NCBI GenBank assembly: GCA_937884755.1
Contig: CAKZYJ010000205.1
Coordinates: forward strand, 1-38,903
Length of the DNA stretch: 38,903 nt
Direction of reading: 5' to 3'
DNA from: an uncultured Flammeovirgaceae bacterium
Lineage (GTDB): Bacteria > Bacteroidota > Bacteroidia > Cytophagales > Cyclobacteriaceae
The stretch's first letter is position 1; each line of letters begins with the position of its first letter. A model generated the notes under the pieces. That model worked only from the letters and a program-made list of their open reading frames with translations. It did not search any database and was not told the origin of the DNA. Shown piece after piece: positions 17,920-33,364 of the stretch. The translations under genes were made by a program, and so were the position numbers.

Positions 17920-17951
17920 TTAAAATTGTATGGTCGTTTTCATGCAGTGGA
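17920..17951 (-). pseudogene. Receptor C-terminal scar, unit 2
   Basis: Between the FecR stop (17952) and the lipoprotein start, the minus strand reads MKTTIQF then TAA. It matches the end of the unit 6 scar (FKTTKQF, stop). On its own it is too short to be convincing; its position in the cassette makes it credible. Confidence 0.45.
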
Positions 17952-18620
17952 CTAGTCGTTAAGTTTGAGGATAGAAAAGCCACCCGACAAAGTAATATGG
18001 TCGTCGTATACGTCCGAAGACTCATATGCTAAGTAAGCCTTCCGGTCGGAGCCTCTCAGGCGATACGCTCGGTGAGGCTCTAGGGTAAATTCCTGCTCAC
18101 CGCACACAATTTGTTGGGGGGTCTGCGAACCATTATATAGACTCAGTGTACCCTCAAACTTTATCCGGTACCGCGCAGCATCCATTTTAGCGTAAGTATC
18201 ATTGCCTCCGTAGACATGCAGTACATCAGTGAGTTGCTGGCTAGTCTCAATGGTGTCAGCCTGGGCATTCGGTGATGCAATGTAGCCGAGAAAGAAGGTT
18301 CCGATGAATAGGCAGGCCACGGCGGCGTAGCGTATAATCCTTTTGTACATTGGTACTACCTTTTCATCTTTCTTGGTGGTGAGCTTTTGGCCTTTTACGG
18401 TTGGTAACTCTTGTGATACCTCAGACCGGATTTGTTCCCTATTTATCTTCTCACTCAGGATCTTGTCCCAGGTTTCCTCCTTGATTTGGGAAATAAATTC
18501 ATCGGAGTACTTTGAGGGTTCATCCTCCGAAGACTCCAGCCATTTTTCAACAAATTGACGTTCTTCTTCCGAGCACTCTCCGGAATAATAGCGTAGTATA
18601 AGTTCTTCAGAAATCTTCAT
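17952..18620 (-). CDS. Unit 2 compact FecR-like anti-sigma factor
   Basis: The 222-residue protein begins MKISEELILRYYSGECSEEE, a FecR-type anti-sigma helix region, followed by a charged linker, a membrane helix (about residues 90-112, YAAVACLFIGTFFLGYIASP), and a periplasmic domain. The latter contains LTDVLHVYGGNDTYAKMDA and IVCGEQEFTLEPHRAYRLRG, the hallmark of these compact versions. There is no DUF4974-like C-terminus. It follows the sigma gene by 77 bases. Role inferred: membrane sensor holding the unit 2 sigma factor. Confidence 0.82.
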   Translation of the reverse strand: MKISEELILRYYSGECSEEERQFVEKWLESSEDEPSKYSDEFISQIKEETWDKILSEKINREQIRSEVSQELPTVKGQKLTTKKDEKVVPMYKRIIRYAAVACLFIGTFFLGYIASPNAQADTIETSQQLTDVLHVYGGNDTYAKMDAARYRIKFEGTLSLYNGSQTPQQIVCGEQEFTLEPHRAYRLRGSDRKAYLAYESSDVYDDHITLSGGFSILKLND

Positions 18621-18697
18621 AACACAGGAAGTTAGTCGAGCCCTTTATCCCTATGTCGTTTCAGAAGTAGCGTACCCCCACTCGGGAAGAGAATTTT

Positions 18698-19315
18698 TTA
18701 GGTATCGGTTAAACTCACTCGCAGAAAGCCAAGTGCTTTGGTCATGTGCCTCTCAACCGTCTTTTCAGAAATTTCTAGAGTAAGGGCAATTTCTTTGTTG
18801 CTCATATGATTTTCACGGCTCAGCCGGAATACCGTTTGGCACTTAGGGGGAAGAAGATTGACCAAATGGTCTATTTCATTTTTTAGCTCAATGGCATCTA
18901 ATTGCTCTTCCGGATCATGGTGAACAGTGGGTGTCTGGGTTTTCACTTCTTCTTTGAGCCGTTCTCGGGCGGCTTTGGCTCTTAAGTAGTCAATAGAAGC
19001 ATACTTGACGGCCCTTACTACGTAAGCGTCTAGGGAAGTGTTAATATCCAGTGTATTGCGACGCTCCCAAAGGTCACCGAAAACGTTTTGGATAATTCCT
19101 TTAGCTACTTCTACGTCATCGACGAGATTCAAGGCAATGCGGAATAGCTTGTCACCACTTTGGTCGTACAATAACTTCAGAGCTTGGCTATTCTTAATTG
19201 CTGCTTGGGCGTTGTTTTCTTGCTCGTTAGCGTAGCGATTTTCACTCAGTGGGATCTTTATTTCTTTTTCCCGCGAAACTTTATTCCCCTTACTATTTTT
19301 CCAGAGAAGTGACAT
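18698..19315 (-). CDS. Unit 2 ECF sigma factor, FecI-like
   Basis: The 205-residue protein has sigma region 2 (LKLLYDQSGDKLFRIALNLV, IIQNVFGDLWERR) and region 4 (VNLLPPKCQTVFRLSRENHM, SNKEIALTLEISEKTVERHM). Its N-terminus is about 25 residues longer than the unit 1 protein. It heads unit 2 with an operator-like site 48-66 bases upstream and a conserved leader (a TTACGCTAATAACTAAC-like block) shared with units 3 and 4. It would direct transcription of the unit 2 FecR and lipoprotein genes. Confidence 0.9.
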   Translation of the reverse strand: MSLLWKNSKGNKVSREKEIKIPLSENRYANEQENNAQAAIKNSQALKLLYDQSGDKLFRIALNLVDDVEVAKGIIQNVFGDLWERRNTLDINTSLDAYVVRAVKYASIDYLRAKAARERLKEEVKTQTPTVHHDPEEQLDAIELKNEIDHLVNLLPPKCQTVFRLSRENHMSNKEIALTLEISEKTVERHMTKALGFLRVSLTDT

Positions 19316-19362
19316 GGTCAGTATGTGCGTAGTACAGCTGAATTACGCTAATAACTAACTTT

Positions 19363-19381
19363 ATTTAGATTGGTTATTAAT
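19363..19381. promoter_or_regulatory. Operator-like site of unit 2
   Basis: ATTTAGATTGGTTATTAAT lies 48 bases upstream of the sigma start, matching the site in the other units at the same distance; the right half is degenerate. Confidence 0.5.
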
Positions 19382-19447
19382 AAGCCAAATATTGGTACTC
19401 ATCACAAAAGCCATCATGTTTGGCGATACTGACTACAGTAAGTTACG

Positions 19448-19705
19448 ATGTCCGAGCACCAATCATGTAGAATATAAGGAATCCTGGCGGGCAGTCGCAG
19501 CACGAACGAATATCTCAAATAGATTGGCTTTGTAGATGCCCAGAGAGGTATATTATTGATTGGTACTGATGACCAAGAAAATGGGCGAGAGCTTATCAAC
19601 TATAGAAAGCTGCTAGATGATATTCCCAACAAAGCTAAAGACATTTTGGGTATTTTGATGGATGTCAACCTATTTAGAGAAGAAGATAAGCATTATATTC
19701 ACTAG
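19448..19705 (+). pseudogene. Schlafen/AlbA_2-type regulator fragment
   Basis: The plus strand carries the start of a Schlafen AlbA_2 (divergent AAA) protein: HVEYKESWR in one frame, then NEYLK, stop, IGFVDAQRGILLIGTDDQEN and NYRKLLDDIPNKAKDILGIL in another, ending at a stop at 19703. Intact members read close to EYLKWICGFANAQGG. The remnant has a frameshift, at least one nonsense codon and no C-terminal part, so it is dead. Such genes are often accessory and mobile; it probably marks an old insertion between units 2 and 3. Confidence 0.7.
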
Positions 19706-19723
19706 CGAAGTAATCGTTCGGTT

Positions 19724-19912
19724 TTAGGTATGGGGGCTGCCCGTGTTTCGTAAGTCGGGGGACTCCCGATAGAGGGACTTGATTTTCTTCCGCAAGGCAT
19801 CCGTTTGCTTCATCGCCTGAAGTAGAATTCGGCACTTATGGTCGGGGTCTTGCAGTAGGCATCGGTCAAGCTCCCAGTAGTAGCGGTAGGCGGTTTCAAA
19901 GGGTTGATAGTT
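19724..19912 (-). pseudogene. Small charged-protein ORF downstream of unit 3 (start lost)
   Basis: The frame reads YRYYWELDRCLLQDPDHK, then AMKQTDALRKKIKSLYRESP, and runs on to a stop at 19724, about 9 residues past the end of its relatives at 23462 and 31393. No ATG or TTG start is in frame; the region equivalent to MKQP is altered by a small deletion. Family unknown. Probably inactive. Confidence 0.5.
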
Positions 19913-19917
19913 TAGTT

Positions 19918-20063
19918 AACTGTCTGCATCAGGATTCTCAGGATTTAAGGATGAACAGGATTAACAGCCTCCGCTATTAAGATCATGATGGTACCTTATA
20001 TTTTATTGTCAGCACTCAAGTTTCACAATCCTGTTAATCCAATAATCCTGATACAGACAGTTA
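19918..20063. repeat. Palindrome-ended intergenic repeat (MITE-like), copy A
   Basis: The left end AACTGTCTGCATCAGGATT and right end AATCCTGATACAGACAGTT are near-perfect inverted repeats, with further internal ones (AACAGGATTAAC versus CCTGTTAATCC). A second copy is at 23669-23830 and a half copy near 27760. No coding capacity. It is probably a non-autonomous mobile or REP-type element. Confidence 0.7.
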
Positions 20064-20130
20064 CAGAAGGCACCCACTCACTGCGCGTACCTCCTGATGA
20101 ATTAAGCTATAGAAAGATTCAGGGTAAAGA

Positions 20131-21426
20131 TCAATCGCCCCAAAGTTTAAACAGACCACCTGCTGCAACGCTGTAAGTCGAAAGCTCAGTATAATTATCA
20201 AAAGAATTGACTCTCAGATAGTGTGATCGGTCAAATGGATTAACCTCCATACTGTAAGCAACAACGTAAAGTTCTCCCCTTGTCTCCGGCAAAAACTCAG
20301 CGTAATCATAGTCTGCCCAAGCTGTAAACTCCATCACATCTCCAGTTGTCAAATCAACTGCTACTGATTTAGTTCCAAAAGCTCGAGGTATACCATACCT
20401 ATCATCGAAAGCAACTGTATCAAGGCTTACATCATTAGAACTATAGTATTGTACTATGGCTTTTCCATCTAAAACAGCGGGCATAATTTCTATTTTTTCC
20501 AAATCCGGGATTACACTTGCCAAATCAAATGAAAAGGTGGGATCAAAGGTACCATCTTGGTTCAATCTTAGAATTACATGTGGCGAAGATGGCCCGGTGT
20601 AGTTGTAGTATGGTTCCAAGAAAGCATTTTCACGAGTTGGAGTTATGTACAGAGAACCATCATTATCAACTCTTACTGTATTGAATGCAGCTATTGACCT
20701 GTTATCAGAGTTGTACTGTAAAGTCTTTGATGCTACGTCAAATACCGCTATGGTAGCACCAATACCATTCATATTACCAATATTGCAACAGGTACTCAGT
20801 GGATATTCACGGATTGACATGAGTACTTTATTCCCTATAACTTTTGGCACAGTAACGGCAAATTCGTCACCAGAGATGTGATCTGTCCAAGGTTCAATGT
20901 TGAGCACTTCTTTAACTTCCATGTTTTCGTAATCCCACTCGATTGCAACACCTTCAGTTAGGTCAAAAAGATAAGCAATAGAATCAGACACCACTGCTGG
21001 ATTCGGGAACGGATTATTAAACCCTACTGAAGCCAGACTAACAATGCCCACTGCTGATATTGATAGGTCTGTGCGGTCTACTGAATATTTAGTGAACGTC
21101 TGTGCATTAACATTCCAAGAAAATGGTCTATCACCTATCCCAAAAGCGAACGTATTTAAGCCTAATTCTATTGAATTACTTACATCGAGGTTTTCTGGTA
21201 CATTTTCCGATATATTTATGTATCGTACTCTACCTGAGGGTCCATCGACCCCATAGACTGTCATGTATGCTGATGCTATTTCTTCCGGTTCAGGAGTTAC
21301 GGTATTGTTGTCATCGCTATCATCCTCATCGCAGGAAACAGTTCCTACCGTAAGTATTCCTATCAGTAGCATGGTGAGCCACGCCCATCGTTTTCTAGTG
21401 TTTATCGTTATGTGTGTCTTATTCAT
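20131..21426 (-). CDS. Unit 3 surface lipoprotein, DUF4374/XusB-like
   Basis: The ATG at 21426 (MNKTHITINTRKRWAWLTML) fits the paralogues better than the ATG at 21444; it gives 431 residues. The lipobox ends TVSC, followed by DEDDSDDNN and a Pro/Glu linker, suggesting a surface lipoprotein. The body is beta-rich with family landmarks YSVDRTDLSIS, GVAIEWDYENMEVKEVLNIE and the end FKLWGD. It carries a vicinal Cys-Cys (STCCN, codons at 20785-20790) conserved in units 3-7. A decayed receptor end lies directly upstream. Probably a ligand-capturing protein of siderophore type; the ligand is unknown. Confidence 0.65.
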   Translation of the reverse strand: MNKTHITINTRKRWAWLTMLLIGILTVGTVSCDEDDSDDNNTVTPEPEEIASAYMTVYGVDGPSGRVRYINISENVPENLDVSNSIELGLNTFAFGIGDRPFSWNVNAQTFTKYSVDRTDLSISAVGIVSLASVGFNNPFPNPAVVSDSIAYLFDLTEGVAIEWDYENMEVKEVLNIEPWTDHISGDEFAVTVPKVIGNKVLMSIREYPLSTCCNIGNMNGIGATIAVFDVASKTLQYNSDNRSIAAFNTVRVDNDGSLYITPTRENAFLEPYYNYTGPSSPHVILRLNQDGTFDPTFSFDLASVIPDLEKIEIMPAVLDGKAIVQYYSSNDVSLDTVAFDDRYGIPRAFGTKSVAVDLTTGDVMEFTAWADYDYAEFLPETRGELYVVAYSMEVNPFDRSHYLRVNSFDNYTELSTYSVAAGGLFKLWGD

Positions 21427-21455
21427 TGTGTTAAAATTTAGCATTGGTTTAAAAG

Positions 21456-21530
21456 TTAAAATCGTATAATGATCTTCAAGCAGGGCCTTTAATCCGGTTG
21501 CGGCATACCGAAGAAAATGCGTTTGGCATT
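21456..21530 (-). pseudogene. Receptor C-terminal scar, unit 3
   Basis: On the minus strand the region reads NAKRIFFGMPQPD, stop, RPCLKIIIRF, stop. It aligns residue by residue with the unit 6 scar (AKVFDFFGVQRPG, then FFFKTTKQF) and with the true receptor end in unit 1. One internal stop shows it is decayed. Confidence 0.65.
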
Positions 21531-21556
21531 TAGAAAAAAATATTAATCCCTACCAT

Positions 21557-22189
21557 CTATTTGAGTAGCACAACCGAAAAATCACCTACCAATTCAGGTT
21601 GCTTGTCGTCGTAAGCTGGCTCCGGACTCTCAGCCGCGGCTAGGCTGGCTTGTCGGTGAGAGCCACTGAGGTAGTACGTTCGGCGGGGTTCCAGCGTAAA
21701 CTCCTGCTCCCCGCATACAATCTGCCTGGGGTGCGGCGCCTCGTTGTACAGCTTTAGTCTTCCCTCAAACTCTACCCGGTAGCGGTTCTCCGTCACTACG
21801 CCGTAGGTTCCGTCGCCCCCGTAAACATGTAGCACATTGGTAAACTGTATGCCCTTCTTCACAGTATCAGCTTGGGCACTCGGTAATGCGGTGAAGTAAC
21901 CGATAAAAAAGGCTCCGATGATTATGCAGGCGGCCGCGGCGTATCTTGTTACATGGTTGAATAAGACTAAATTCCTCGCTTTTTGGTGACTCATTTGTTT
22001 CTTAAGCTGTGGTCGGCCTTCAGACAGTATCGACCATATCTCATCACTATCCGCTTTCGGTCTTTCTTTGGTGCTCACGCGTAGCTCGGGATACTCCGGT
22101 TGATCTAGCCATTTCTCAATAGCTTTTCGTTCTTCTTCGGTGCAGACTCCTCGGCCATACCGCTTCAATAGTTCTTTAGTAATTCGCAT
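21557..22189 (-). CDS. Unit 3 compact FecR-like anti-sigma factor
   Basis: The 210-residue protein starts MRITKELLKRYGRGVCTEEE and has a membrane helix (about residues 82-102, YAAAACIIIGAFFIGYFTAL), then the compact periplasmic domain with LHVYGGDGTYGVVTENRYRV and IVCGEQEFTLEPRRTYYLSG. It is very close to the unit 4 protein, so these two units share a recent ancestor in this part. As in the other copies, the C-terminal part of standard FecR is absent. It is 203 bases after the sigma gene. Membrane-bound sensor for the unit 3 sigma factor (inferred). Confidence 0.82.
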   Translation of the reverse strand: MRITKELLKRYGRGVCTEEERKAIEKWLDQPEYPELRVSTKERPKADSDEIWSILSEGRPQLKKQMSHQKARNLVLFNHVTRYAAAACIIIGAFFIGYFTALPSAQADTVKKGIQFTNVLHVYGGDGTYGVVTENRYRVEFEGRLKLYNEAPHPRQIVCGEQEFTLEPRRTYYLSGSHRQASLAAAESPEPAYDDKQPELVGDFSVVLLK

Positions 22190-22392
22190 AGTATTTTCGC
22201 AACTGTTTTAGCATTGAGACCTTCATCACTAGTTTAAACCCCTATATATGTTAGTCGGACGAGTGGGGGAGATAGCCACATTGGCGTCTGAAAAAAATCA
22301 AAATATTAACTCCAAGAAAAAATAGGATCAGTGAGATATGGTTTTACAGAAAGTATGGCATAGGGAAAATGGAAACGTTGGGATAAATAACC

Positions 22393-22962
22393 CTACCTCT
22401 TCATAGCTCGTTTTGGAATCTGGTACGCTTCCAAATGGCCTCTTAGCTTATTAAGTGCAACTTCAATATGTCTTTTTACCGCATAAGTAGTCATCCCCAG
22501 CTTTTTGGCAATTTCTTTAGTAGACATATCAGCTTCGCGGCTGAGCCTAAACACTTGTTGGCATTTTGGGGGTAGTTGCTCGATAGCCTCAGTAATCTGT
22601 TCCGCTAATTCCTCATAATCTAGCTCCAGATCAGTGGTGTTTTCGTAGTAGGGAAACTCTCGTAGCGAGGCGGCTAGATATCGGGCCGATTGTTCTTTGC
22701 TTCTCAAGTGATCCACTATCTTATTCTTGGCGGCGCGGGTAAGGTAGGTTTTCCAAGAAGCTTTTTTCAGCCCTTGGGTTTGGAGCTGCTCCCGACGGTC
22801 CCAAATTGAAGCGAAAATATCAGCCGTAATATTTTTACTTACCTCAGCATCTTCCAGATAATTGTAGCAAATATTGAACACATGATCCAAGTAAGTTTGG
22901 TACAGCAGGGTAAATCCGGCGGTGGTTCGAATGTCTAGCGTTCGCTTCGGAAAGATGCTCAT
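22393..22962 (-). CDS. Unit 3 ECF sigma factor, FecI-like
   Basis: The 189-residue protein begins MSIFPKRTLDIRTTAGFTLL, with region 2 (LDHVFNICYNYLEDAEVSKN, IFASIWDRR) and region 4 (IEQLPPKCQQVFRLSREADM, TKEIAKKLGMTTYAVKRHIE) intact. Its ATG overlaps the stop of an upstream 59-codon ORF by 4 nt (ATGA), unlike units 1, 2, 5 and 6, where the sigma gene follows the promoter directly. Translation may therefore depend on the upstream ORF. It should drive the unit 3 FecR and lipoprotein genes. Confidence 0.88.
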   Translation of the reverse strand: MSIFPKRTLDIRTTAGFTLLYQTYLDHVFNICYNYLEDAEVSKNITADIFASIWDRREQLQTQGLKKASWKTYLTRAAKNKIVDHLRSKEQSARYLAASLREFPYYENTTDLELDYEELAEQITEAIEQLPPKCQQVFRLSREADMSTKEIAKKLGMTTYAVKRHIEVALNKLRGHLEAYQIPKRAMKR

Positions 22963-23138: not shown

Positions 23139-23185
23139 AGTTGGTAGGTGCGTAGTGAAGCCGAATTACGCTAACAACTAACCTT

Positions 23186-23461: not shown

Positions 23462-23650
23462 TCAGTCGGGGGACTCCCGATAGAGAGACTTGATTTTCTT
23501 CCGCAATGCATCTGTTTGCTTCATGGCTCGCATCAGAATACGATGTCTATGATTGGGGTTTTCCTGTAAGCAATGGTGAAGCTCCCAGTAGAAGCGGTCG
23601 AGGTGCTTCTGATTTTCGGTGGGTGGTTGCTGAGTGGTAGGCTGTTTCAA
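23462..23650 (-). CDS. Small charged protein of unknown family, downstream of unit 4
   Basis: This 62-residue ORF (HLDRFYWELHHCLQENPNHR, then RAMKQTDALRKKIKSLYRES, ending PD) has relatives at 31393, 27524 and 19724, each following a cassette on the same strand. It looks helical and highly charged, with no signal peptide. The start is TTG where the relative at 31614 has ATG (MKQP in both), so translation may be weak. It may be a cytoplasmic RNA/DNA- or protein-binding helix pair; function unknown. The reading frame is conserved between copies while third positions vary, which favours a once-functional gene. Confidence 0.5.
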   Translation of the reverse strand: MKQPTTQQPPTENQKHLDRFYWELHHCLQENPNHRHRILMRAMKQTDALRKKIKSLYRESPD

Positions 23651-23914: not shown

Positions 23915-25243
23915 TCAATCTCCCCAGAGCTTCCCTAGCTGTGATACTAGCACGTAAGAAGCATCGCCGCTGCCGTCGACGCCGTAAGCACCCAGTTCTG
24001 TGAACTGATCAAATGCATCTTGGCGTAGGTAATACGAAATAAAATTACCATCTTCGTCATTGCTCCCAGCCAAATGGTAAAAAGTTCCATCTATTTTCGC
24101 AGTTGGTTGTACATAAACATTATATTTTGCCAAGCCAGTAAAATCGGAAGCCACTCTTGTGTCAAAATCTACAGATACAATTCTTACGCCACCTTGTCTA
24201 TGTTGAAATCTGTCATCAAATGATTCTGGCAGTCCACCATCAACTATATCATAATAGGTAAATATAGCTTTATTGTTGCCAAAGGCTATTGGACTTCCCA
24301 TGGCATAAATATCTAAAACCTCTTTTAAGTCAAATGCGAAATTGGGGTCAAATGTGCCATCAGCATTAAATTTAAGTAGGGTAGTGAATGAAGGTAGCGT
24401 ACTGGAATCAACATCGAAATATTTCGGTACAAAAGCACTTGGTTCAATAGAGCTAACAAGGAAATCACCATTTTCATCTTCTGGCATGAAGTTCCAGCTA
24501 GCCAGAATTCTCGAATCTCTTTCATATGTCAAAGTATTTGTTCTCGTGTCAAAAACGCCAACAATGGCTCCCAAACCATTTGTATTAAATTCACAGCATA
24601 CAGAGGGCCCCCAATCTCTGATTGGATAGAAAATTTTCTCGTTGCTTACGTAAATCCATTCACTTCCGAAAAGGGTTGGATTTGGTTGAATTGAGGTTAT
24701 TGGTTCCACCTGATGAACCTCAGTAATGGTCATGTCTTGTTGGTTCCACTCGATTATTAGCCCTTCTTCTAGATCTGCTATGTAAGCTTCAGTTTCCGAT
24801 ACATAAGCTGGGTAGACAACACCATCCGGATCAAATCCAGAAGCGGCTAAACTTAGAATACCTTCAACCGATAAAGATAAATCACTCCGATTTACCGCCC
24901 ACTTTGTAATCGTCTTAGCATTTGCATCATAGACGTAGGGATGTTCACTAAAAGAGGAAACACTTTTACCTAGTCCTAGTTCTATGCCACGAGAAAGATC
25001 AAAGCTCTCGGGAATCTCCTCAGAGACATTTAAATAAAAGACATCACCATTGGGTGTTCCTACCCGATATGAGGTCATCCAGGCGGATTCAACTTCCGTA
25101 CCTGGATCTACGGGTGCTCCGTTGTCATCATCTTCTTCACTACAGGAAATAGTTCCTGCCGCAAGTATTCCTATCAGCAGCATGGTCAGCCAGGCCCTTT
25201 TTTTACTCGTTTTTTTGGTGTCTTTAGCATTAAACATTTTCAT
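23915..25243 (-). CDS. Unit 4 surface lipoprotein, DUF4374/XusB-like
   Basis: The 442-residue protein begins MKMFNAKDTKKTSKKRAWLT with lipobox TISC followed by SEEDDDN, close to the Ser-acidic surface export signal. Family landmarks are SYRVGTPNGDVFYLNVSEEI, KWAVNRSDLSLSVEGILSLA, GLIIEWNQQDMTI and the end GKLWGD. It has the vicinal Cys-Cys (PSVCCEF, codons at 24593-24598). Its N-terminus and upstream leader match unit 6, whereas its sigma and FecR match unit 3, pointing to recombination between units. Probably a siderophore- or metal-ligand-capturing protein on the cell surface (inferred). Confidence 0.65.
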   Translation of the reverse strand: MKMFNAKDTKKTSKKRAWLTMLLIGILAAGTISCSEEDDDNGAPVDPGTEVESAWMTSYRVGTPNGDVFYLNVSEEIPESFDLSRGIELGLGKSVSSFSEHPYVYDANAKTITKWAVNRSDLSLSVEGILSLAASGFDPDGVVYPAYVSETEAYIADLEEGLIIEWNQQDMTITEVHQVEPITSIQPNPTLFGSEWIYVSNEKIFYPIRDWGPSVCCEFNTNGLGAIVGVFDTRTNTLTYERDSRILASWNFMPEDENGDFLVSSIEPSAFVPKYFDVDSSTLPSFTTLLKFNADGTFDPNFAFDLKEVLDIYAMGSPIAFGNNKAIFTYYDIVDGGLPESFDDRFQHRQGGVRIVSVDFDTRVASDFTGLAKYNVYVQPTAKIDGTFYHLAGSNDEDGNFISYYLRQDAFDQFTELGAYGVDGSGDASYVLVSQLGKLWGD

Positions 25244-25287
25244 TTCTTAGTACTTTGCATTTAATAATTATTTTGAATTATTACCTG

Positions 25288-25430
25288 CCAATTTGGAAGT
25301 GTGTCCTGGTACGACACATTTCCTGGCAGGTTTCCCAAATCAAGTTTGGGACAGGTCCCCGAAACCAGTTCGGGACAGGTTCCCAGATCAAGCCTGCCTT
25401 TGTCGGCAGTCAGATTCAGGACAGATTAAG
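25288..25430. repeat. Structured leader repeat before unit 4 lipoprotein
   Basis: Several small inverted repeats lie in series: CCTGCCAATTTGG/CCTGGCAGG-type ends, AAATCAAGTTTGGGACAGGT, then GAAACCAGTTCGGGACAGGT. Similar blocks lie before the lipoprotein genes of units 5 (29474-29625) and 6 (33130-33235), but not in units 1-3. It would form a multi-hairpin 5' leader in the transcript. Confidence 0.6.
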
Positions 25431-25590: not shown

Positions 25591-26235
25591 CTACTCAAGT
25601 CGTAGAAACGAAAAACCACCTACTAATTTAGGTTGCTCTTTGCGGTAAGCATCTATCCCCCAATGCTCACTGATTACTAGGCTGGCTTGTCGGTGAGAGC
25701 CGCTGAGGTAGTACGTTCGGCGGGGTTCCAGCGTAAACTCCTGCTCTCCGCATACAATCTGCTTAGGGTGCTGCGCCTCATTGTACAGTGCTAGCCTCCC
25801 CTCGAACTCTATCCGGTAGCGGTCCTCAGTTACTACCCCGTAACCCCCGTCGCCCCCGTAGATGTGCAGTAGACCGGGCAGGTCGGTTAGCCGATTACTA
25901 CTCTTTGTTGGATTAGCCTGGGCATTGGGTAACGCAGTGAAGTAGCCGATAAAGAAGGCCCCAATGAGTAGGCAGGCGGCTGCCGCAAATCTCGTCACAT
26001 AATTAAGTAAGAGGATATTCTTGGCCTTGCTTGTGCTCATCTGATTTTCCAATTCAGGAACGCTTTGGGCCATCTTCGACCAGATGTTCTCCTCGTTTAC
26101 TTCTGGGGTGCCCGTAACCGTAAGATTTGTGGAGGGATCGTCCAGGGTCTCGAACCACTTCTCAATGGCTTTTTTCTCTTCCTCGGTGCACAGTCCCATA
26201 CCATGCCGCTCTAGTAATTCTTTGGTTATTTTCAT
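25591..26235 (-). CDS. Unit 4 compact FecR-like anti-sigma factor
   Basis: The 214-residue protein starts MKITKELLERHGMGLCTEEE, with a membrane helix (about residues 85-105, FAAAACLLIGAFFIGYFTAL) and the compact periplasmic domain (LLHIYGGDGGYGVVTEDRYR; IVCGEQEFTLEPRRTYYLSG). It has a small insertion (DLPG) beside the YGG motif relative to unit 3. The gene is intact although the sigma gene before it carries two nonsense codons; if the sigma is dead, this anti-sigma has lost its own partner and might act on the close paralogue of unit 3. Confidence 0.82.
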   Translation of the reverse strand: MKITKELLERHGMGLCTEEEKKAIEKWFETLDDPSTNLTVTGTPEVNEENIWSKMAQSVPELENQMSTSKAKNILLLNYVTRFAAAACLLIGAFFIGYFTALPNAQANPTKSSNRLTDLPGLLHIYGGDGGYGVVTEDRYRIEFEGRLALYNEAQHPKQIVCGEQEFTLEPRRTYYLSGSHRQASLVISEHWGIDAYRKEQPKLVGGFSFLRLE

Positions 26236-26446: not shown

Positions 26447-27016
26447 CTAACTACCCGTAGTGCGCTTGGGTGGTTGATAGTCGGCAAGGTTTTCACGCAG
26501 GTGATTGAGGGCTTTAGCAATATGCTTTTTTACGGCATTATCAGAAATGGAAAGATGGTGGGCTATTGCCTTATTAGACAGCCCTTTCTCTCGGCTTAGT
26601 CGGAAGACGTGCTGGCACTTGGGCGGTAATTGATCGACCAACGTATTTAATAGGAAGGCGAGTTCTCAGAAAAGTTAGTCTTCTTCGGTAGCCCGATAGC
26701 AAACTGGGGTGTCTTGAAGGGCTTTACTCAAATATGCCTCAAATTGCTTTTTAATTCGGAGGTGATTATAAACTTTATGCTTGGTGGCCTTCGATAAATA
26801 GCGTTCCCAGGAATCTACTTGCCAAGTATCCTGATGAAGGGCCTCTCTTCGTTCCCATACTGAGGTAAAGATCTCAGAAGTAATATTTTCGCTAGCTGCA
26901 ACATCACCCAAGTACCGGTAGCAGGTACGGAAGACGAATTTTACGTAGGTTCGGTAAAGGATGGTAAACCCAGCTTTGGTTCGTATGTCTAGCGTTCGCT
27001 TCGGGAAGATGCTCAT
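26447..27016 (-). pseudogene. Unit 4 ECF sigma factor split by two in-frame stops
   Basis: Region 2 is complete in 27016-26675 (MSIFPKRTLDIRTKAGFTIL, ITSEIFTSVWERR). After ATEED there is TAA, Leu-Phe, TGA, and the same frame then continues ELAFLLNTLVDQLPPKCQHV with a complete region 4 (SNKAIAHHLSISDNAVKKHI) to 26447. No frameshift is involved; the stops fall in the linker between domains. Most likely a pseudogene. A TTG at 26641 could in principle start a separate region-4 protein. It is a close relative of the intact unit 3 sigma. Its ATG overlaps the upstream ORF by 4 nt. Confidence 0.8.
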
Positions 27017-28034: not shown

Positions 28035-28082
28035 AGTAAGGGGCAGTCGGGGGCGGGCGAATGGACACGATAAGGTAGGAAT

Positions 28083-28121
28083 AAAAAAAGCCCGAGCAGA
28101 ATCGCTGTTTCCCTCCGGGCT
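28083..28121 (-). terminator. Rho-independent terminator of unit 5
   Basis: On the minus strand AGCCCGGAGGG...CTGCTCGGGCT is followed by a run of seven T, 24 bases after the lipoprotein stop. Unit 6 ends with a near-identical element. Confidence 0.85.
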
Positions 28122-28144
28122 ATAAAAATATAGTGAGCGGTTGT

Positions 28145-29437
28145 TTACCAGAGTTTGGCTACATTTTGTACGTTAAAACTTGGTGCCCCTTCTGTCACTA
28201 GTACGAATTCATCGAATGATACCTGTCTTAATAAATCACCCTGTTGGTTGGATACATCTGCCCCTTCAGGAAGTGTGGTAGCTACAAAATAATTGTCACC
28301 GTCAATTGTTGTTATGTAAAATGAGCCCAAACTATAGTCATCAAAAGCCGTAAATGGCTTTGTCGCATTTGTAGTCATATCTATAACAGTATTATTGGTA
28401 AAATCCGGATTTCCCCACCAGTTCCATCTATCCGAATAGGCACTAGGCCAAGTGTCAATATCTTGGTAATTAACTAAGATCTCGTTACCTAAAACCGCAT
28501 TTATCTGACCGCCATAGTCAATAGTTATTGCTGAAGATAACTCGCATTCAAATGACGGATCAATATTTCCATTTGGATCAACCCTGATGGTATAATATTT
28601 TGCATATCTGTCATCCAAACCAAAGTAATGACGGTTAACTTCAAGGTAATAGTTAGGAGACATATACCAGTTTCCATTTGCATCCGAAGTAGAAAACAAA
28701 CCGCCGATCGGCAATCTTTCATCAGAAATATATTCTACAGAGCCTGAGGACGGATCGTATATAGCCATAAAGGGTGTTGGTTCATCGAAAGGAAAATCAC
28801 AGCAATTTCCTTCTACTACATGCTGGAATGAATACATTACTTTACCGTTTTCTAAGCCTATACCATTGGATGTTATACTAGCACTTACCCCATTGCTAGA
28901 GCCAGGCATCAATGGCTGGATCTGCCGAGTTTCTGTAATCTCCATTGTCTCTGAGTTAAACTCTGCAATTACTCCATCAAAAAAACCTGCAAGGACAGCT
29001 TTGCTGTCATCGATAAATGCTATTGGTACAAAACCAGTTAGTCCCAATGAAGCATAGCTCAAAACACCAGTTACATTAGCTTCAAACGTTGACTTATCTA
29101 TTTCCCATTTGCTTATTGTTTGTGCGTTTGTATTGATAACGAAAAAATTATCACCAGAAGCAACAACACCGATATTCGATCCTAATTCAATACTATTGGA
29201 AAGATCTATTTTATCCGGAAAAGATTCTCCGATATTAGCGTACATGACAACACCACTGGGTGTTCTAACTTGATAGACCTGTAGATAGCCTGATTCTGCT
29301 TCCACACCGCCATCAGGGGTCAAGTTATTGTCCTCGTCTTCACTACAGGAAATCACTCCTAGTGAAATAATTCCTACTAAAAGCAAGGTGAGCCATGCCC
29401 ATTTGCTATTTTCATTTTTTGATTTTAAAAATTTCAT
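28145..29437 (-). CDS. Unit 5 surface lipoprotein, DUF4374/XusB-like
   Basis: The ATG at 29437 (MKFLKSKNENSKWAWLTLLL) is chosen by likeness to the paralogues; an ATG-equivalent at 29479 would add 14 residues. This gives 430 residues. The lipobox ends VISC, followed by SEDEDNN, fitting surface export. Landmarks are YQVRTPSGVVMYANIGESFP, KWEIDKSTFEANVTGVLSYA, GVIAEFNSETMEITETRQIQ and the end VAKLW. The Cys-Cys pair is present (GNCCDF, codons at 28799-28804). A strong terminator follows. Ligand capture for an outer-membrane receptor is inferred from family only. Confidence 0.65.
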   Translation of the reverse strand: MKFLKSKNENSKWAWLTLLLVGIISLGVISCSEDEDNNLTPDGGVEAESGYLQVYQVRTPSGVVMYANIGESFPDKIDLSNSIELGSNIGVVASGDNFFVINTNAQTISKWEIDKSTFEANVTGVLSYASLGLTGFVPIAFIDDSKAVLAGFFDGVIAEFNSETMEITETRQIQPLMPGSSNGVSASITSNGIGLENGKVMYSFQHVVEGNCCDFPFDEPTPFMAIYDPSSGSVEYISDERLPIGGLFSTSDANGNWYMSPNYYLEVNRHYFGLDDRYAKYYTIRVDPNGNIDPSFECELSSAITIDYGGQINAVLGNEILVNYQDIDTWPSAYSDRWNWWGNPDFTNNTVIDMTTNATKPFTAFDDYSLGSFYITTIDGDNYFVATTLPEGADVSNQQGDLLRQVSFDEFVLVTEGAPSFNVQNVAKLW

Positions 29438-29473
29438 TTCTTTTGTGTTTAAACAGTTTTTAAATTGTTCACC

Positions 29474-29625
29474 TGCCATCCATAGTAATGTGTTCCTTCA
29501 CCACACATTACTTGGCAGGTTTCCCAAATCAAGTTTGGAACAGGTACCTGAATCAAGTTCAAGACAGGTCCCCAAATCAAGTTTGGGACAAGTCCTCGAA
29601 AGAGTTCAGGAAAGGTTTAGCCGTT
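29474..29625. repeat. Structured leader repeat before unit 5 lipoprotein
   Basis: The block CCTGCC...TGGCAGG is followed by three AAATCAAGTTTGGGACAGGT-like repeats, as in units 4 and 6. The inner stem (AGTAATGTG/CACATTACT) has a different sequence from units 4 and 6 but pairs equally well, a compensatory change that suggests the hairpin matters. Confidence 0.6.
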
Positions 29626-29687
29626 TGGCTAAGTGGGTTTGATTGATGATTCGCTTGTGTTCAATTGTTTACATAGGCATTCAGCGT

Positions 29688-29747
29688 TTAACGTTGAAGA
29701 GTTGATTTAAAGAAGTAAAAAACCCATTTGCCAGCGTAGCAATAACT
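29688..29747 (-). pseudogene. Receptor C-terminal scar, unit 5
   Basis: Immediately after the FecR stop and in the same frame the minus strand reads YAGKWVFYFFKSTLQR, stop. VFY.xKST matches the unit 4 scar (RVFYIKST). Only the last part of the receptor end is recognisable. Confidence 0.55.
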
Positions 29748-30368
29748 CTAATCATCCAATTCTAGGATAGAGAAATCCCCTTCTAATGAATAAGGCTGTC
29801 CTTGATCTTTTGTCAGAAGGGCATTCTGGTTAGAACCACTAAGGAAGTATGCTCGATGAGGCTCCAGGGTAAATTCTTGCTCGCCGCACACAAGCTGTTT
29901 GGGTTGATCCGCATCATTATATAGCTTTAGCCTTCCCTCAAATTTTACCCGATATCGGGTAGCATTCATTTTTGTGTAAGCACCATTACCCCCGTAGATA
30001 TACAGCAAATCGGTAAGATGCTTAGGCTTTTTTACTGTATCCGCCTGAGCACTCGGCGGGGAAGCAAAATAACCGATACAAATACCAATAATTAAGCAGG
30101 CTACCGCCGCGTAGCGAGAAATTCTTTGGTATAGGGAGACTACTTTACCCCGTTTACTTTCACTGCTTGATGAGGCCAAATCCGGTCCCATTTCAGTTAT
30201 TTTCTCCCAAATAGCTTCTTTGCTTTCCTCATATTCTCTCCGGTAATTTATATCGATCACTGAAGGTATATCATCGGTGGAACGTAACCACTTTTCAACG
30301 GCTGTCCGTTCTTCTTCACTACAAAGCCCCTCGTGAAATCTTCTCAATAATTCTTTTGTGATAATCAT
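29748..30368 (-). CDS. Unit 5 compact FecR-like anti-sigma factor
   Basis: The 206-residue protein starts MIITKELLRRFHEGLCSEEE, has a membrane helix at about residues 86-106 (YAAVACLIIGICIGYFASPP), and a compact periplasmic domain with LTDLLYIYGGNGAYTKMNAT and LVCGEQEFTLEPHRAYFLSG. No DUF4974-like tail. It lies 155 bases after the sigma gene. In-frame continuation past its stop enters the receptor scar, as in unit 6. Inferred to be the membrane sensor for the unit 5 sigma. Confidence 0.82.
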   Translation of the reverse strand: MIITKELLRRFHEGLCSEEERTAVEKWLRSTDDIPSVIDINYRREYEESKEAIWEKITEMGPDLASSSSESKRGKVVSLYQRISRYAAVACLIIGICIGYFASPPSAQADTVKKPKHLTDLLYIYGGNGAYTKMNATRYRVKFEGRLKLYNDADQPKQLVCGEQEFTLEPHRAYFLSGSNQNALLTKDQGQPYSLEGDFSILELDD

Positions 30369-30523
30369 GATAAAAATTTTTGGTTCGTATCGAATAAGCA
30401 GGAAAGCCTACATAGATAAAGTAGACGCGGAACGAAAAATCTACGAACGGGGCAGGAAAAAAATTAAACTTTTTTCTACGCCAACGGAAAAGCTCAGAAT
30501 TTTGAGGGAATGAGGAAGCTGGA

Positions 30524-31102
30524 CTACGACCCAGTGAACCGGGAATTAGTTCCGTAATCGGCTAACTTTACTTTCAATTCAGATAGGGCTTTGTAGAGAT
30601 GGGTGTTTATGGTAGTTTCTGCTAAGGACAATTTTTGAGAGGCCATTTTGACCGATAGCCCCTCTAGTTTCACTAGTGTAAAAACCTTTTTTCGTTTAGG
30701 GGGCAGGCTTTCAATGGCGTTTTCTAGCTGCTCTAAAAAGTCCTGATACCATACTTCATTTTCTACGGTGACATTTAGCAAGCCGAGTTTCTCCGCCGCC
30801 TTCTGCAATCTATCGGCTCTCCGTTTTTCAAGTTTAAAATATTCCGATACTTGCCATTTGGCAGCCTGGTATAAATAGCCTTCTATAGAACCTCTAATGG
30901 TTAGAGAGTTTCGGCGCTCCCAGACAGATAAGAATATTTTTGCCGTCAAATCTTCGCATGCGGCTCGGTCATCAATGTATTGACGACATACTGTATTTAC
31001 CAACAGGCCATGCTCTTCGTAAATTTGTCTGAAACCTTCAAGAGTTCGGATATCAGGGATAGCAATTTTACTCTTTTTATTACTTTTCTGGAACGATGAC
31101 AT
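30524..31102 (-). CDS. Unit 5 ECF sigma factor, FecI-like
   Basis: The 192-residue protein has region 2 (GFRQIYEEHGLLVNTVCRQY, LTAKIFLSVWERR) and region 4 (IESLPPKRKKVFTLVKLEGL, SVKMASQKLSLAETTINTHL). The region 4 recognition part is clearly different from the other units (CQ.VFRLSRE replaced by RKKVFTLVKLE), so promoter or anti-sigma specificity may differ. Its N-terminus MSSFQKSNKKSK is the best match to the upstream ORFs of units 3 and 4. The operator-like site is 51 bases upstream. Confidence 0.9.
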   Translation of the reverse strand: MSSFQKSNKKSKIAIPDIRTLEGFRQIYEEHGLLVNTVCRQYIDDRAACEDLTAKIFLSVWERRNSLTIRGSIEGYLYQAAKWQVSEYFKLEKRRADRLQKAAEKLGLLNVTVENEVWYQDFLEQLENAIESLPPKRKKVFTLVKLEGLSVKMASQKLSLAETTINTHLYKALSELKVKLADYGTNSRFTGS

Positions 31103-31152
31103 GGTTAGTTGGTAGGTGGCGCAGTTAGATAACTGTGAAAAATGGTATATTT

Positions 31153-31171
31153 GTTTAGACTAATTACAAAA
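31153..31171. promoter_or_regulatory. Operator-like site of unit 5
   Basis: GTTTAGACTAATTACAAAA lies 51 bases before the sigma start. The left half matches unit 6 exactly. Confidence 0.55.
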
Positions 31172-31219
31172 AACAAATGTACTGGTCAGCTCGGTAAACC
31201 GCTTGGATTTGATAAAATA

Positions 31220-31372
31220 AGGGAGGGCAATCAGGCAGGGTGTAACTGCAGTATCTTGAATGGCGGTAGCCACGAAGGCTCAGTAAACCATCTTCCATGT
31301 GGCGGGAGAGTTTGGTAGATGGGATACTTAAAACGCAGGAAAAATACAGTAGATCGTCGTTTACTGAATAGG
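31220..31372. repeat. Intercassette direct repeat, copy 2
   Basis: Homologue of 27395-27512, with the same flanking order (small ORF, then this block, then the next sigma promoter). Confidence 0.55.
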
Positions 31373-31392
31373 GGGGGAGCAAGTGTGTTTCG

Positions 31393-31614
31393 TCAATCGG
31401 GGGACTCCCGATAGAGAGCCTTGATCTTCTTCCGCAAGGCATCGGTCTGTTTCATGGCGCTGAGAAGAATACGATGCTTTCGGTTGGGATCATCCCGCAG
31501 GCATCTGGGTCCACCGTGGACGCGGGGCAATCCGTGGTTAAGCTCCCAGTAGTAGCGGTCGAGGTTTTGTTGATTTTCGTCGGTTGCTGACTTGGTTTCA
31601 ATGGGCTGTTTCAT
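31393..31614 (-). CDS. Small charged protein of unknown family, downstream of unit 6
   Basis: The ATG at 31614 (MKQPIETKSATDENQQNLDR) gives 73 residues, the most intact member of the four-copy family. It continues YYWELNHGLPRVHGGPRCLR and ends KQTDALRKKIKALYRESPD. Compared with the copy at 23462 it has a 10-residue insertion that coincides with a 13-bp DNA palindrome (GTCCACCGTGGAC), so the insertion may come from a small mobile repeat. Predicted helical, basic, cytoplasmic. Function unknown; it lies after the unit 6 terminator, so it probably needs its own promoter. Confidence 0.55.
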   Translation of the reverse strand: MKQPIETKSATDENQQNLDRYYWELNHGLPRVHGGPRCLRDDPNRKHRILLSAMKQTDALRKKIKALYRESPD

Positions 31615-31673
31615 AGTAGTGTCACAGTAAAGGTCGGTCGGGGGACAGGCCAAGGATGGGAGCGGGTGAACTT

Positions 31674-31708
31674 AACTAACGGGATTACTCTGAGTAATCC
31701 TGCTAGTT
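31674..31708. terminator. Imperfect hairpin homologous to 23862-23896
   Basis: AACTAACGGGATTACT and AGTAATCCTGCTAGTT pair with two weak positions. It stands beside the stronger terminator of unit 6. Confidence 0.5.
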
Positions 31709-31746
31709 AAAAAAAGCCCGAGCAGAATCGCTGCTCTGTTCGGGCT
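31709..31746 (-). terminator. Rho-independent terminator of unit 6
   Basis: On the minus strand AGCCCGAACAGAGCAG...CTGCTCGGGCT is followed by seven T, 24 bases after the lipoprotein stop; near-identical to the unit 5 terminator. Confidence 0.85.
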
Positions 31747-31770
31747 ATAAAATATTATTATGATTTTACT

Positions 31771-33093
31771 CTACCAGAGTTGAGCCATACGCTGCATAGA
31801 TCCACCGACGTGCTTAGTAAGTTGAGTGTAATTGAAACCATCTTCTCGTCTAAGAACATATGAGACTTCTTCTATATTCTCATCAGGTACAGCGAATGTG
31901 CCTGCCACTGTAAAATCAACTCCGTTTGTAGTGTGGTTAAAGCTAGCGTACTGGTATTGATCAAAAGCAGTGAAAGGAGTGACTCCTCCTGTTACTATAT
32001 CAAGGGTTACTGGAATAAAATCATCGGCAGAAAAACCATCAAATCGGCTATCCCAGTTATCACCAAACTTCCAGACAGCACTATCGGGGTAACTGAAAGG
32101 AACGAGATTCCCAGAAGCTATCTCAATGGGTCTAGCCCATCGCGCTGGCAAAACACTTTGATAATTAAAGCTAAAGTTAGGATCAATATTTCCATCTGCG
32201 TCAATCCGTAAAATATTAGGTTCAGTAGATATTACAGACTGATCGTAGTTCATGTATTTTCTAACAAGCTCAGCGGTTGAGGTAGGAACCGCATATACAA
32301 AACCGTCTCCATTAGGTATCAACGTTTCAGCTGCTACCAATCTGTTGTCTTGTTTGTACTCCATAGTTTTTGATTGGGCATCAAAAACACCAAGTATAAA
32401 TCCATCTGGCCCATCATAATCGCAGCACCCTGTTGGAAAATAACTTATACCGTATAGTATTTTTTGAGTTTCGGGGATAAAAACAGGATCGTTAACAAAA
32501 TAAATTCCATTAGTAGGATTAGCATTAGGAACAGGAGGGAGATCGAAAGTTATTACCTGCGTAATTTCCATTGTAGTTGGGTTAAATTCCACAATCTGGC
32601 CTTCAAAAATATCCTGCACATAACCTTCAGTTTCCGAGGCAATAACTATAGTAAGACCTATATTGCCCGAGATACCATTAGAAGCAAAACTAATGATTCC
32701 ATCTACCGAAAATTCCAGTGTGGTTCTATCTACATTCCATTTTGTAAGTGTACCTGCGGCATCGTTCCATGAGTAAGGATGTTCGCCAAAGGAAAGAATT
32801 CTGTTGCCAAGTCCTAACTCCACTGCATTTGAGACATCTGTTTCATCAGGTATGTTTTCGTTTACTTCCATATAGTACAACCTGCCATTGGGAGTAGCGG
32901 TAAAATATCCGGTGAGCCAAGCGGATGCTACTTCCTCGGGTTCCTCTGGCTCCGGGGTTACAATATTGTTATCATCGTTATCGTCGTCATCACAGGAGAT
33001 AATTCCTATCGATAGCACTGCTATCAGCAGCATGGTCAGCCAGGCCTTTTTGTTACTTGTTTTTTTGATGTCTTTAGCATTAAACATTTTCAT
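31771..33093 (-). CDS. Unit 6 surface lipoprotein, DUF4374/XusB-like
   Basis: The 440-residue protein starts MKMFNAKDIKKTSNKKAWLT, almost the same as unit 4, with lipobox IISC, then DDDDNDDNN and a Pro/Glu linker. Landmarks are TATPNGRLYYMEVNENIPDE, KWNVDRTTLEFSVDGIISFA, GQIVEFNPTTMEITQVITFD and the end MAQLW. The Cys-Cys pair is present (TGCCDYD, codons at 32422-32427). Upstream are the multi-hairpin leader and the best-preserved receptor scar. Probably a surface-exposed binding protein; the ligand is unknown. Confidence 0.65.
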   Translation of the reverse strand: MKMFNAKDIKKTSNKKAWLTMLLIAVLSIGIISCDDDDNDDNNIVTPEPEEPEEVASAWLTGYFTATPNGRLYYMEVNENIPDETDVSNAVELGLGNRILSFGEHPYSWNDAAGTLTKWNVDRTTLEFSVDGIISFASNGISGNIGLTIVIASETEGYVQDIFEGQIVEFNPTTMEITQVITFDLPPVPNANPTNGIYFVNDPVFIPETQKILYGISYFPTGCCDYDGPDGFILGVFDAQSKTMEYKQDNRLVAAETLIPNGDGFVYAVPTSTAELVRKYMNYDQSVISTEPNILRIDADGNIDPNFSFNYQSVLPARWARPIEIASGNLVPFSYPDSAVWKFGDNWDSRFDGFSADDFIPVTLDIVTGGVTPFTAFDQYQYASFNHTTNGVDFTVAGTFAVPDENIEEVSYVLRREDGFNYTQLTKHVGGSMQRMAQLW

Positions 33094-33129
33094 TTCTTAG
33101 TACTTTGCATTTAATAATTGTTTGATTAT

Positions 33130-33235
33130 TACCTGCCGTTTTGGGAGTGTGTCCTGATCCGACACATTTCCTGGCAGGTTTCCCCCATCAAGCTGGGTAC
33201 AAGTCCCTGAAACATGTTCAGGACAGGTTAAGTCA
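33130..33235. repeat. Structured leader repeat before unit 6 lipoprotein
   Basis: A CCTGCCG...CCTGGCAGG outer stem with an inner GTGTCCTGATCCGACAC-like stem, then CCTGAAACATGTTCAGG. It is the same layout as units 4 and 5 but shorter. Confidence 0.6.
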
Positions 33236-33280
33236 TCCGACCTAGTTTTTATTCTGTTTCTTCTACATAGGCAGTCAGTG

Positions 33281-33364
33281 TTAAAATTGTTTGGTGGTTT
33301 TGAAGAAAAAAGCCCCTCCTGGTCGTTGCACCCCGAAGAAGTCAAACACCTTGGCATAGTGCCC
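33281..33364 (-). pseudogene. Receptor C-terminal scar, unit 6 (best preserved)
   Basis: Directly after the FecR stop, in the same frame, the minus strand reads GHYAKVFDFFGVQRPGGAFF then FKTTKQF and TAA. Ten consecutive residues (VFDFFGVQRP) are identical to the C-terminus of the unit 1 receptor. It has no internal stop. Suppression of the FecR TAG would append it to FecR, but there is no sign that this occurs. Confidence 0.85.

Follow-up and report, generated by a model that had tools for sequence, protein, structure and literature searches.

In the cell surface signaling arrangement represented by FecI-FecR-FecA, an extracytoplasmic function (ECF) sigma factor and the membrane protein FecR are encoded upstream of a TonB-dependent receptor. 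For Bacteroides xenosiderophore uptake, PMC13142918 describes XusB as a siderophore-binding lipoprotein that works for the receptor XusA, next to a PepSY protein, reports that XusB homologues stand by TonB transporters and PepSY proteins, and regards surplus XusB as likely destined for vesicles. The present analysis concerns contig CAKZYJ010000205.1 of an uncultured Flammeovirgaceae bacterium (assembly GCA_937884755.1), the full 38,903 nucleotides of which are referred to here as the window. Its minus strand harbors an array of units, each composed of genes for an ECF sigma factor, a FecR-like protein, and a lipoprotein, with a TonB-dependent receptor gene additionally present in unit 1. As judged by sequence comparison, units 2 to 6 keep, in the interval from the FecR-like gene to the lipoprotein gene, what are read as decayed 3′ ends of such a receptor gene.

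Intact units of this kind resemble XusABC, as outlined in PMC13142918, in that a surface propeller lipoprotein, a TonB receptor, and a PepSY membrane protein adjoin one another. This adjacency of TonB receptor and PepSY genes was present on contig C337 of the same assembly and in L037 (a locus in a relative, an uncultured Flammeovirgaceae metagenome-assembled genome, found by contig scan), and not in window units 2 to 6. Unlike XusB, the lipoprotein gave no DUF4374 match and is only 11 to 13% identical to it; unlike the XusABC operon of that source, the operon described here has its own sigma and FecR-like genes, and 12 of 15 units are without a complete receptor before the lipoprotein. The BtuBG transporters (PMC10404256) share the propeller class, with 8bmz and 8okv among the top structural matches, but are dedicated to vitamin B12 rather than belonging to an iron neighborhood. 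Nothing on receptor remnants was found for BtuBG at the start of the abstract of PMC10404256, nor were receptor-less Xus units or receptor remnants found in the titles and abstract openings of the literature searched. The array looks like a series of xus-like operons stripped to their regulators and a putative binding lipoprotein, with fold predictions underlying the latter designation, and is considered to belong with the xus systems as a variant form.

Putative receptor remnants in units 2 to 7

The first-pass annotation of the window had interpreted the stretches between the FecR-like and lipoprotein genes as receptor ends left after loss of the receptor body, an interpretation which is upheld here, and it is this slot that the receptor occupies in intact units. 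All of the peptides on which that interpretation was based were found on the minus strand, namely, VFDFFGVQRP in unit 6 (the same as in the unit 1 receptor), FNFSEVQQPSRVFYIK in unit 4, RIFFGMPQPD followed by a stop in unit 3, and KTTIQF followed by a stop in unit 2. VFYFFKST of unit 5 was also present, although its best alignment lies approximately 12 codons before the end (with VFYIKST of unit 4) and not at VFDFFGV. The deletion had been described as leaving about 25 codons, but the retained segments are not uniform in length and amount to approximately 26, 24, 20 to 25, 12, and 8 codons (stop included) in units 6, 4, 3, 5, and 2, respectively.

When each stretch was aligned with the 3′ ends of five intact receptors and compared with 500 dinucleotide shuffles per unit, the anticipated excess over shuffled sequence was observed for units 4 and 6 (0/500 shuffles reaching the real score in each case) and unit 2 (2/500) but not for units 3 (267/500) and 5 (131/500). 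A 240-nt profile built solely from eight intact receptors matched units 6 and 4 with the scores listed in Table 1, matched unit 2 weakly (2.8 bits, E 0.04), and gave no match in units 3 and 5; the remnant of unit 7, which is located on contig C286, reached 28.7 bits. An extended profile, composed of intact ends and other remnants to the exclusion of units 2, 3, and 5, was applied to both strands of the whole window, and its top six sites were the native receptor end and the five remnants of units 2 to 6, the next being an unrelated site at 8.8 bits (E 0.058), compared with 9.1 bits for unit 5. Against eight other spacers, units 2, 3, and 5 exceeded 300/300 shuffles for three, four, and two spacers, respectively (0/300 for unit 3 against units 2, 4, and 6 and C128a, and for unit 5 against units 4 and 6), in a test which is boosted by spacer homology outside the remnant. 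The remnants of units 4 and 6 are certain singly, while those of units 2, 3, and 5 are weak singly but lie at the predicted place; by homology and operon place, the former pair can be assigned to TonB-dependent receptors individually and the latter three by rank only. A working peptide consisting of a signal start and the last receptor strand was considered as an alternative product of these stretches and was dropped, as the remnants of units 2 to 6 have stops, frame breaks, or no start.

Census in the genome and its relatives

The assembly amounts to 8.35 Mb in 528 contigs, of which the window represents C205. At a cutoff of E 1e-20, the lipoprotein family was detected at 16 places, corresponding to 15 members because one gene is split over two contigs; a distant sixteenth member on C419 (E 1e-7) is located behind a receptor. 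Contig ends overlap by seemingly one k-mer length: the end of C286 and the right-hand end of the window have 55 nt in common, C274 meets C286 by a 55-nt overlap, and C128 has the same overlap. A receptor precedes three of the 15 lipoproteins (those of unit 1, C337, and C286, the receptor of the last being cut at its 5′ side by the contig edge), and the other 12 lack a complete receptor immediately before them (units 2 to 7, C466a, C466b, C156a, C156b, C128a, and C66). A receptor end is present in all 12 of these receptor-less units, clearly in nine and weakly in three (units 2, 3, and 5). The receptor-end profile returned 12 genomic sites at E <1e-11, comprising three receptor ends and nine sites before receptor-less lipoproteins, with the next site at only E 0.075; since the profile had been trained on eight of the nine remnant sites and the ninth is a twin of one of these eight, this search mainly indicates that no further strong copies are present.

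Of 390 genomes from the taxonomic family, 7 (among them the genome under study) contained the lipoprotein family at E 1e-40. Among the relatives' loci inspected, eight lipoprotein genes are located directly behind receptor sequence (two on L037/L059, together with those of L058, L060, L061, L040 [receptor in two pieces], L041, and L042), the two exceptions being a second lipoprotein gene of L042, which follows the first one, and that of the distant L043, which has no receptor in its flank.

Receptor loss in protein trees and at break points

A lipoprotein tree of 20 rows requires six changes of receptor state, with starred branches forcing four of them. Unit 2 and the intact unit L037b of another genome are sisters (100/100), as are unit 5 and the receptor-bearing C286 (100/99). 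Unit 6 groups with C466a, C466b, and L037a, an intact unit of another genome (100/100), while units 3 and 4 and C128a form a clade (97/99). A single clade of the 12 receptor-less lipoprotein rows was rejected by the approximately unbiased test (p-AU 2.5e-55), and a tree without signal peptides (unit 5 kept uncut) presented the same picture. For the FecR-like proteins, a tree of 12 rows, which excludes the long rows of unit 1 and L060, likewise rejected the nine receptor-less rows as one clade (p-AU 1.1e-4), and one or two changes are forced by starred branches when all 14 rows are used; C274 was scored in these trees as receptor bearing by its receptor start, its contig ending inside the gene.

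The two proteins also disagree with each other, in that a group of C466a, C466b, and units 3 and 4 was rejected on lipoproteins (p-AU 1.6e-8), whereas the groups of unit 6 with C466 and of units 3 and 4 with C128a were rejected on FecR-like proteins (p-AU 1.2e-4 and 2.1e-3). The units are therefore mosaics, and this conflict is taken to show recombination between them.

The first-pass annotation had envisaged one deletion of the receptor body at a shared point, followed by amplification of the shortened unit. Read by eye from the alignment, however, the 5′ break points lie at the plug end in C466, at approximately the plug start in C156a, and just past the start codon in units 5 and 6, while the 5′ partner of the junction in unit 7 is lipoprotein-side spacer; a 5′ junction piece of approximately 25 nt is common to units 3 and 4 and C128a. 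Because these break points differ and because receptor-less and receptor-bearing units interleave in the trees of the neighboring genes, a single deletion followed by amplification is rejected, differing break points being an outcome that the first-pass annotation itself had named as refuting it; units 3 and 4 and C128a nevertheless resemble the product of one loss with subsequent amplification. Receptor loss is accordingly read from these comparisons as repeated, in units that also recombine, and not as a single event.

The unit 6 remnant is closest to the C286 receptor (112 versus 75 for the next), and that of C156b is closest to C337 (51 versus 36). Remnants occur in two spacer types, each of which is also found with a receptor-bearing unit. 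Between units 4 and 6, the spacer and signal peptide are 86 to 87% identical, compared with 70 to 72% for the sigma, FecR-like, and mature lipoprotein genes, and only this excess is used, given that the gap scoring of per-gene global alignment places most pairs near a floor of about 70%; per-gene identity as such was discarded for the same reason. C466a and C466b are identical over 3 kb up to approximately 135 nt into the lipoprotein gene and then diverge (dN 0.105, dS 0.247), an identity which collapsed repeats may inflate. The residues AK before VFDFF were considered as a derived junction common to unit 6 and C466 but discarded, as the intact C337 and C286 receptors have AK too. Separately, the long spacers hold repeats spaced by 24 nt (of the AATCAAGTTTGGGACAGGT type; window positions 25314-25380, 29503-29617, and 33186-33228), and an older remnant may lie in the approximately 130 nt that separate the FecR-like stop from the start of the receptor in C274 (L083:5920-6060).

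Hollowed receptors and PepSY genes

The operon was seen whole, in the order sigma, FecR-like, receptor, lipoprotein, and PepSY, in C337 (PepSY_TM E 3e-64), and the receptor, lipoprotein, and PepSY genes stand side by side in L037, the PepSY gene being 3′ of the lipoprotein gene in both. In C466, two tandem units encode a 255-amino-acid protein which contains the whole of CarbopepD_reg_2 and plug positions 2 to 103 of 107, the plug being fused in frame to the last 22 to 26 receptor codons, and C156a keeps approximately 115 to 140 residues of the receptor N terminus before the remnant. PepSY genes are hollowed as well: only residues 10 to 80 match in C466a, and residues 3 to 19 are joined to residues 375 to 414 in C466b. 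No PepSY gene or remnant was found in window units 2 to 6, the best match in the window being E 0.19. Based on the hollowed receptors of C466 and C156a and the graded PepSY states, the stripping of these operons looks stepwise.

Origin of the receptor-less units

We consider it probable that the stretches are remnants of XusA-like receptor genes and that receptor loss was repeated, through internal deletions and recombination, rather than the product of one deletion and amplification. The ancestral operon would have encoded a sigma factor, a FecR-like protein, a receptor, an XusB-like lipoprotein, and a PepSY membrane protein. Repeated loss of the receptor, and in most units also of the PepSY gene, would have taken place after the lipoproteins of these units had diverged, by internal deletions which left approximately 8 to 26 codons of the receptor 3′ end and sometimes a 5′ part too, with recombination between units contributing further. 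What survives would be a unit of an ECF sigma factor, a membrane FecR-like protein, and a surface beta-propeller lipoprotein, without a gate.

A number of observations weigh against this proposal. None of 12 lipoprotein members matched DUF4374, whether in Pfam with E values up to 0.1 allowed or in NCBIfam with E values up to 0.01. The assembly is fragmented, and identical repeats may be collapsed. The C286 lipoprotein and then the C286 receptor are located upstream of unit 7, a receptor thus being found one gene upstream of it. The C156b lipoprotein has one in-frame stop, and two PepSY genes stand behind it, such that PepSY loss is not general. Furthermore, of the 11 rows searched with the 240-nt profile, 8 have almost coincident starts of the retained segment (positions 155, 159, 161, 164, 165, 165, 174, and 186), with unit 2 starting at 215/240 and units 3 and 5 giving no match. 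The chance of seven uniform starts in such a range is approximately 2e-5, an estimate in which C156a and C156b are counted as one, unit 2 is left out, and the rows were chosen after the fact; such clustering is hardly expected from independent deletions. Either a founding junction that was copied between units by recombination could account for it, or the final 80 nt may be under constraint, although a strict constraint is disfavored because units 2 and 5 keep only approximately 8 and 12 codons. Given that the trees conflict, lipoprotein lineages may also have lost the receptor by moving onto a receptor-less cassette, and not by deletion in place.

The near-shared 3′ boundary and its chance estimate lend support to the notion that a founding junction arose once and was spread by gene conversion or unequal crossing-over in the receptor 3′ end and spacer, thereby pairing different FecR-like and lipoprotein lineages. 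The tree conflict across the receptor position, the excess identity of spacer and signal peptide between units 4 and 6, and the identity of the C466 copies over 3 kb as far as the signal peptide, with divergence thereafter, are consistent with it; yet the 5′ partners differ among C466, C156a, units 5 and 6, and unit 7, remnants are found in two spacer types which each also accompany a receptor-bearing unit, and the unit 6 and C156b remnants are closest to different receptors, so that this scenario appears rather unlikely, if still worthy of consideration. The same clustered starts, together with the presence of a receptor end in every receptor-less unit, might instead indicate that the lipoprotein gene needs the last ~80 nt of the receptor gene for transcription start, processing, or translation, which would explain their retention. 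We find this doubtful, as the lipoproteins of units 2 and 5 are still open behind their short remnants and as the conserved hairpin described below is located downstream of the stop, outside the remnant, and is absent from short spacers.

That units 2, 3, and 5 contain no remnant at all, their similarity having arisen by chance in AT-rich spacer, is improbable. The failure of units 3 and 5 to exceed shuffles against intact ends, their absence from the intact-only profile results, and the near equality of an unrelated site with unit 5 favor such a view, but a profile built without the three stretches ranks them fourth to sixth in the window, on the strand and at the site that were predicted, and they match other remnants, though spacer homology helps in the latter. 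One deletion in one unit with tandem amplification of the shortened form is the least credible history and very improbable: a small-scale version is possible for the clade of units 3 and 4 and C128a with its common 5′ junction, but the FecR-like proteins of these same three units do not group, and a single receptor-less clade is rejected for both proteins.

Lipoproteins

The predicted model of the unit 6 lipoprotein (predicted local distance difference test [pLDDT] score of 83.7) found its best Foldseek matches in Bacteroides fragilis XusB (9hqe/9hqk), with an E value of 2.3e-11, template modeling scores of 0.56/0.64, and a root mean square deviation of 6.1 for 9hqe. There were 345 matches at E ≤0.001, BtuG-type (8bmz and 8okv) and other propellers following XusB. 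The lipoprotein is consequently assigned a predicted beta-propeller fold like that of the solved XusB; a search against PDB sequences gave no match. An acidic stretch after the lipobox cysteine acts as a surface export signal, and a cysteine with three to six acidic residues within the next eight was observed in 18 of 20 lipoprotein rows. The exceptions are unit 7, which is cut before the site, and unit 5, which was scored at an upstream cysteine, its likely site being CSEDED.

FecR-like proteins and sigma factors

The arrangement of an ECF sigma factor and a membrane FecR-like protein upstream of a TonB receptor is that of FecI-FecR-FecA. In contrast to that system, no STN domain was detected in the three full receptors scanned (unit 1, C337, and L037a), and the FecR-like proteins have no FecR match in Pfam and no fold match in PDB. 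More precisely, 10 FecR-like members searched against Pfam at E up to 0.1 gave no FecR domain match, one gave a DUF4880 match (E 0.074), and these 10 were not assigned to FecR, DUF4880, or DUF4974; the name "FecR-like" consequently rests on place and topology. The unit 6 FecR-like model presents cytoplasmic helices, a membrane helix (by eye), and a periplasmic beta domain in that order (mean pLDDT 66.3, with blocks of residues 121 to 190 at 81 to 94), and a PDB fold search returned nothing below E 0.7. FecA-type signaling through the receptor is unlikely owing to the lack of an STN match in the three full receptors, and receptor loss need not, on that view, silence a unit.

The unit 4 sigma gene (Table 1) has a relative at L030:464-1030 with one in-frame stop in the same region 2-region 4 linker, both regions being readable in both genes; a split sigma factor, read-through, or decay are possible explanations. 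At L032:282-839 (minus strand), sigma-like and FecR-like matches occur in one 185-amino-acid open frame or overlap, as if fused.

Spacer hairpin and other features

A two-helix hairpin is present in the receptor-lipoprotein spacers of several units (Table 1), located downstream of the receptor stop codon. In a structure drawn from the same sequences on which it was scored, 92.4% of cells are paired and 8 of 18 pairs have two-sided changes (each 0/500 shuffles; further pair types, 16/500), and slid controls are at most 42% paired. Among eight genomes searched, matches at E ≤1e-18 are confined to these spacers (seven in G000 and two in G296); weaker matches lie mostly on the opposite strand, with single further ones in G296 C168, G003, and G000 C273. 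Rfam at gathering scores returned nothing on the window. The hairpin perhaps sets the lipoprotein-to-receptor ratio.

Between units 6 and 7 lies a large gene (window positions 35019-37280, minus strand), a putative glycoside hydrolase gene. A small open frame of approximately 60 to 86 codons (QKHLDRFYWEL and similar) recurs 3′ of lipoprotein or PepSY genes.

Table 1. Features of the receptor-less array and associated elements (window positions unless a locus is named)
Feature	Position	Strand	Basis or remark
Unit 1 lipoprotein	6938..8218	-	Own-genome match of lipoprotein family
Unit 1 TonB-dependent receptor, intact	8311..10707	-	Pfam PF13715 (CarbopepD_reg_2) and PF07715 (plug), no STN match; 3′ end is profile reference
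Unit 1 FecR-like protein	10698..11324	-	A1 profile match
Unit 1 ECF sigma factor	11418..11966	-	Pfam sigma70 regions 2 and 4
Unit 2 XusB-like lipoprotein	16609..17898	-	Lipoprotein family match; in tree with L037b
Unit 2 receptor 3′ remnant, ~8 codons, weak singly	17920..17944	-	11.5 bits, E 0.0084, rank 4 of window; 2/500 shuffles
Unit 2 FecR-like protein	17952..18620	-	A1 profile
Unit 2 ECF sigma factor	18698..19315	-	Pfam sigma70 regions 2 and 4
Unit 3 XusB-like lipoprotein	20131..21444	-	Lipoprotein family match
Unit 3 receptor 3′ remnant, ~20 codons, weak singly	21456..21516, to ~21529 aligned with C128a	-	10.5 bits, E 0.017, rank 5
Unit 3 FecR-like protein	21557..22189	-	A1 profile
Unit 3 ECF sigma factor	22393..22962	-	Open frame, named by likeness, no domain scan
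Unit 4 XusB-like lipoprotein	23915..25243	-	Lipoprotein family match
Covarying hairpin, unit 4 receptor-lipoprotein spacer	25277..25333	-	Covariation and search
Unit 4 receptor 3′ remnant, ~24 codons	25490..25562	-	31.3 bits with intact-only profile; 0/500 shuffles
Unit 4 FecR-like protein	25591..26235	-	A1 profile
Unit 4 sigma gene, two in-frame stops in region 2-region 4 linker	26447..27016	-	Translation
Unit 5 XusB-like lipoprotein	28145..29479, true start probably 29437	-	Family match; in tree with C286
Covarying hairpin, unit 5 spacer	29464..29522	-	Covariation and search
Unit 5 receptor 3′ remnant, ~12 codons, weak singly	29690..29726	-	9.1 bits, E 0.045, rank 6
Unit 5 FecR-like protein	29748..30368	-	A1 profile
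Unit 5 ECF sigma factor	30524..31102	-	Open frame, named by likeness, no domain scan
Unit 6 XusB-like lipoprotein	31771..33093	-	Model pLDDT 83.7; Foldseek best match XusB 9hqe
Covarying hairpin, unit 6 spacer	33125..33181	-	Covariation and search
Unit 6 receptor 3′ remnant, ~26 codons	33281..33359	-	69.5 bits with intact-only profile; 0/500 shuffles
Unit 6 FecR-like protein	33365..33976	-	A1 profile
Unit 6 ECF sigma factor	34186..34725	-	Open frame, named by likeness, no domain scan
Unit 7 lipoprotein, cut by window edge	37728..38903 (37728-38873 also given)	-	Start and receptor remnant on contig C286
Small open frame copies	23462-23650, 31393-31653	-	Also in L030, L031, L035, L062
Hairpin elsewhere	L035:4832-4888; L037:2941-2999, 10039-10092; L030:2778-2834; L033:8094-8151		

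Implications

The sigma and FecR-like pair would drive the lipoproteins, which, if expressed and still able to bind ferric siderophores, may pass these in trans to one of the few receptors that remain or else serve as traps, on the cell surface or carried by vesicles. We tentatively suggest that importer operons may have been turned into many separately regulated, receptor-less, siderophore-binding surface lipoproteins, which would either expand specificity with a shared gate or serve as iron-denying traps, new binding domains having been recombined near the signal peptide behind a fixed cassette of sigma factor, FecR-like protein, remnant, and secretion signal.

In an operon of apparent iron-scavenging type, most copies have lost the import gate, and an intact surface protein remains beside its remnant. 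One genome thus presents the steps by which a lipoprotein-assisted importer would shed its transporter, from intact operons through an in-frame, plug-only receptor to graded remnants. As a caution, units arranged in tandem do not have to trace back to a single shortened copy, neighboring genes having different histories here. Should the lipoproteins prove functional, it becomes testable whether such lids work without a receptor of their own.

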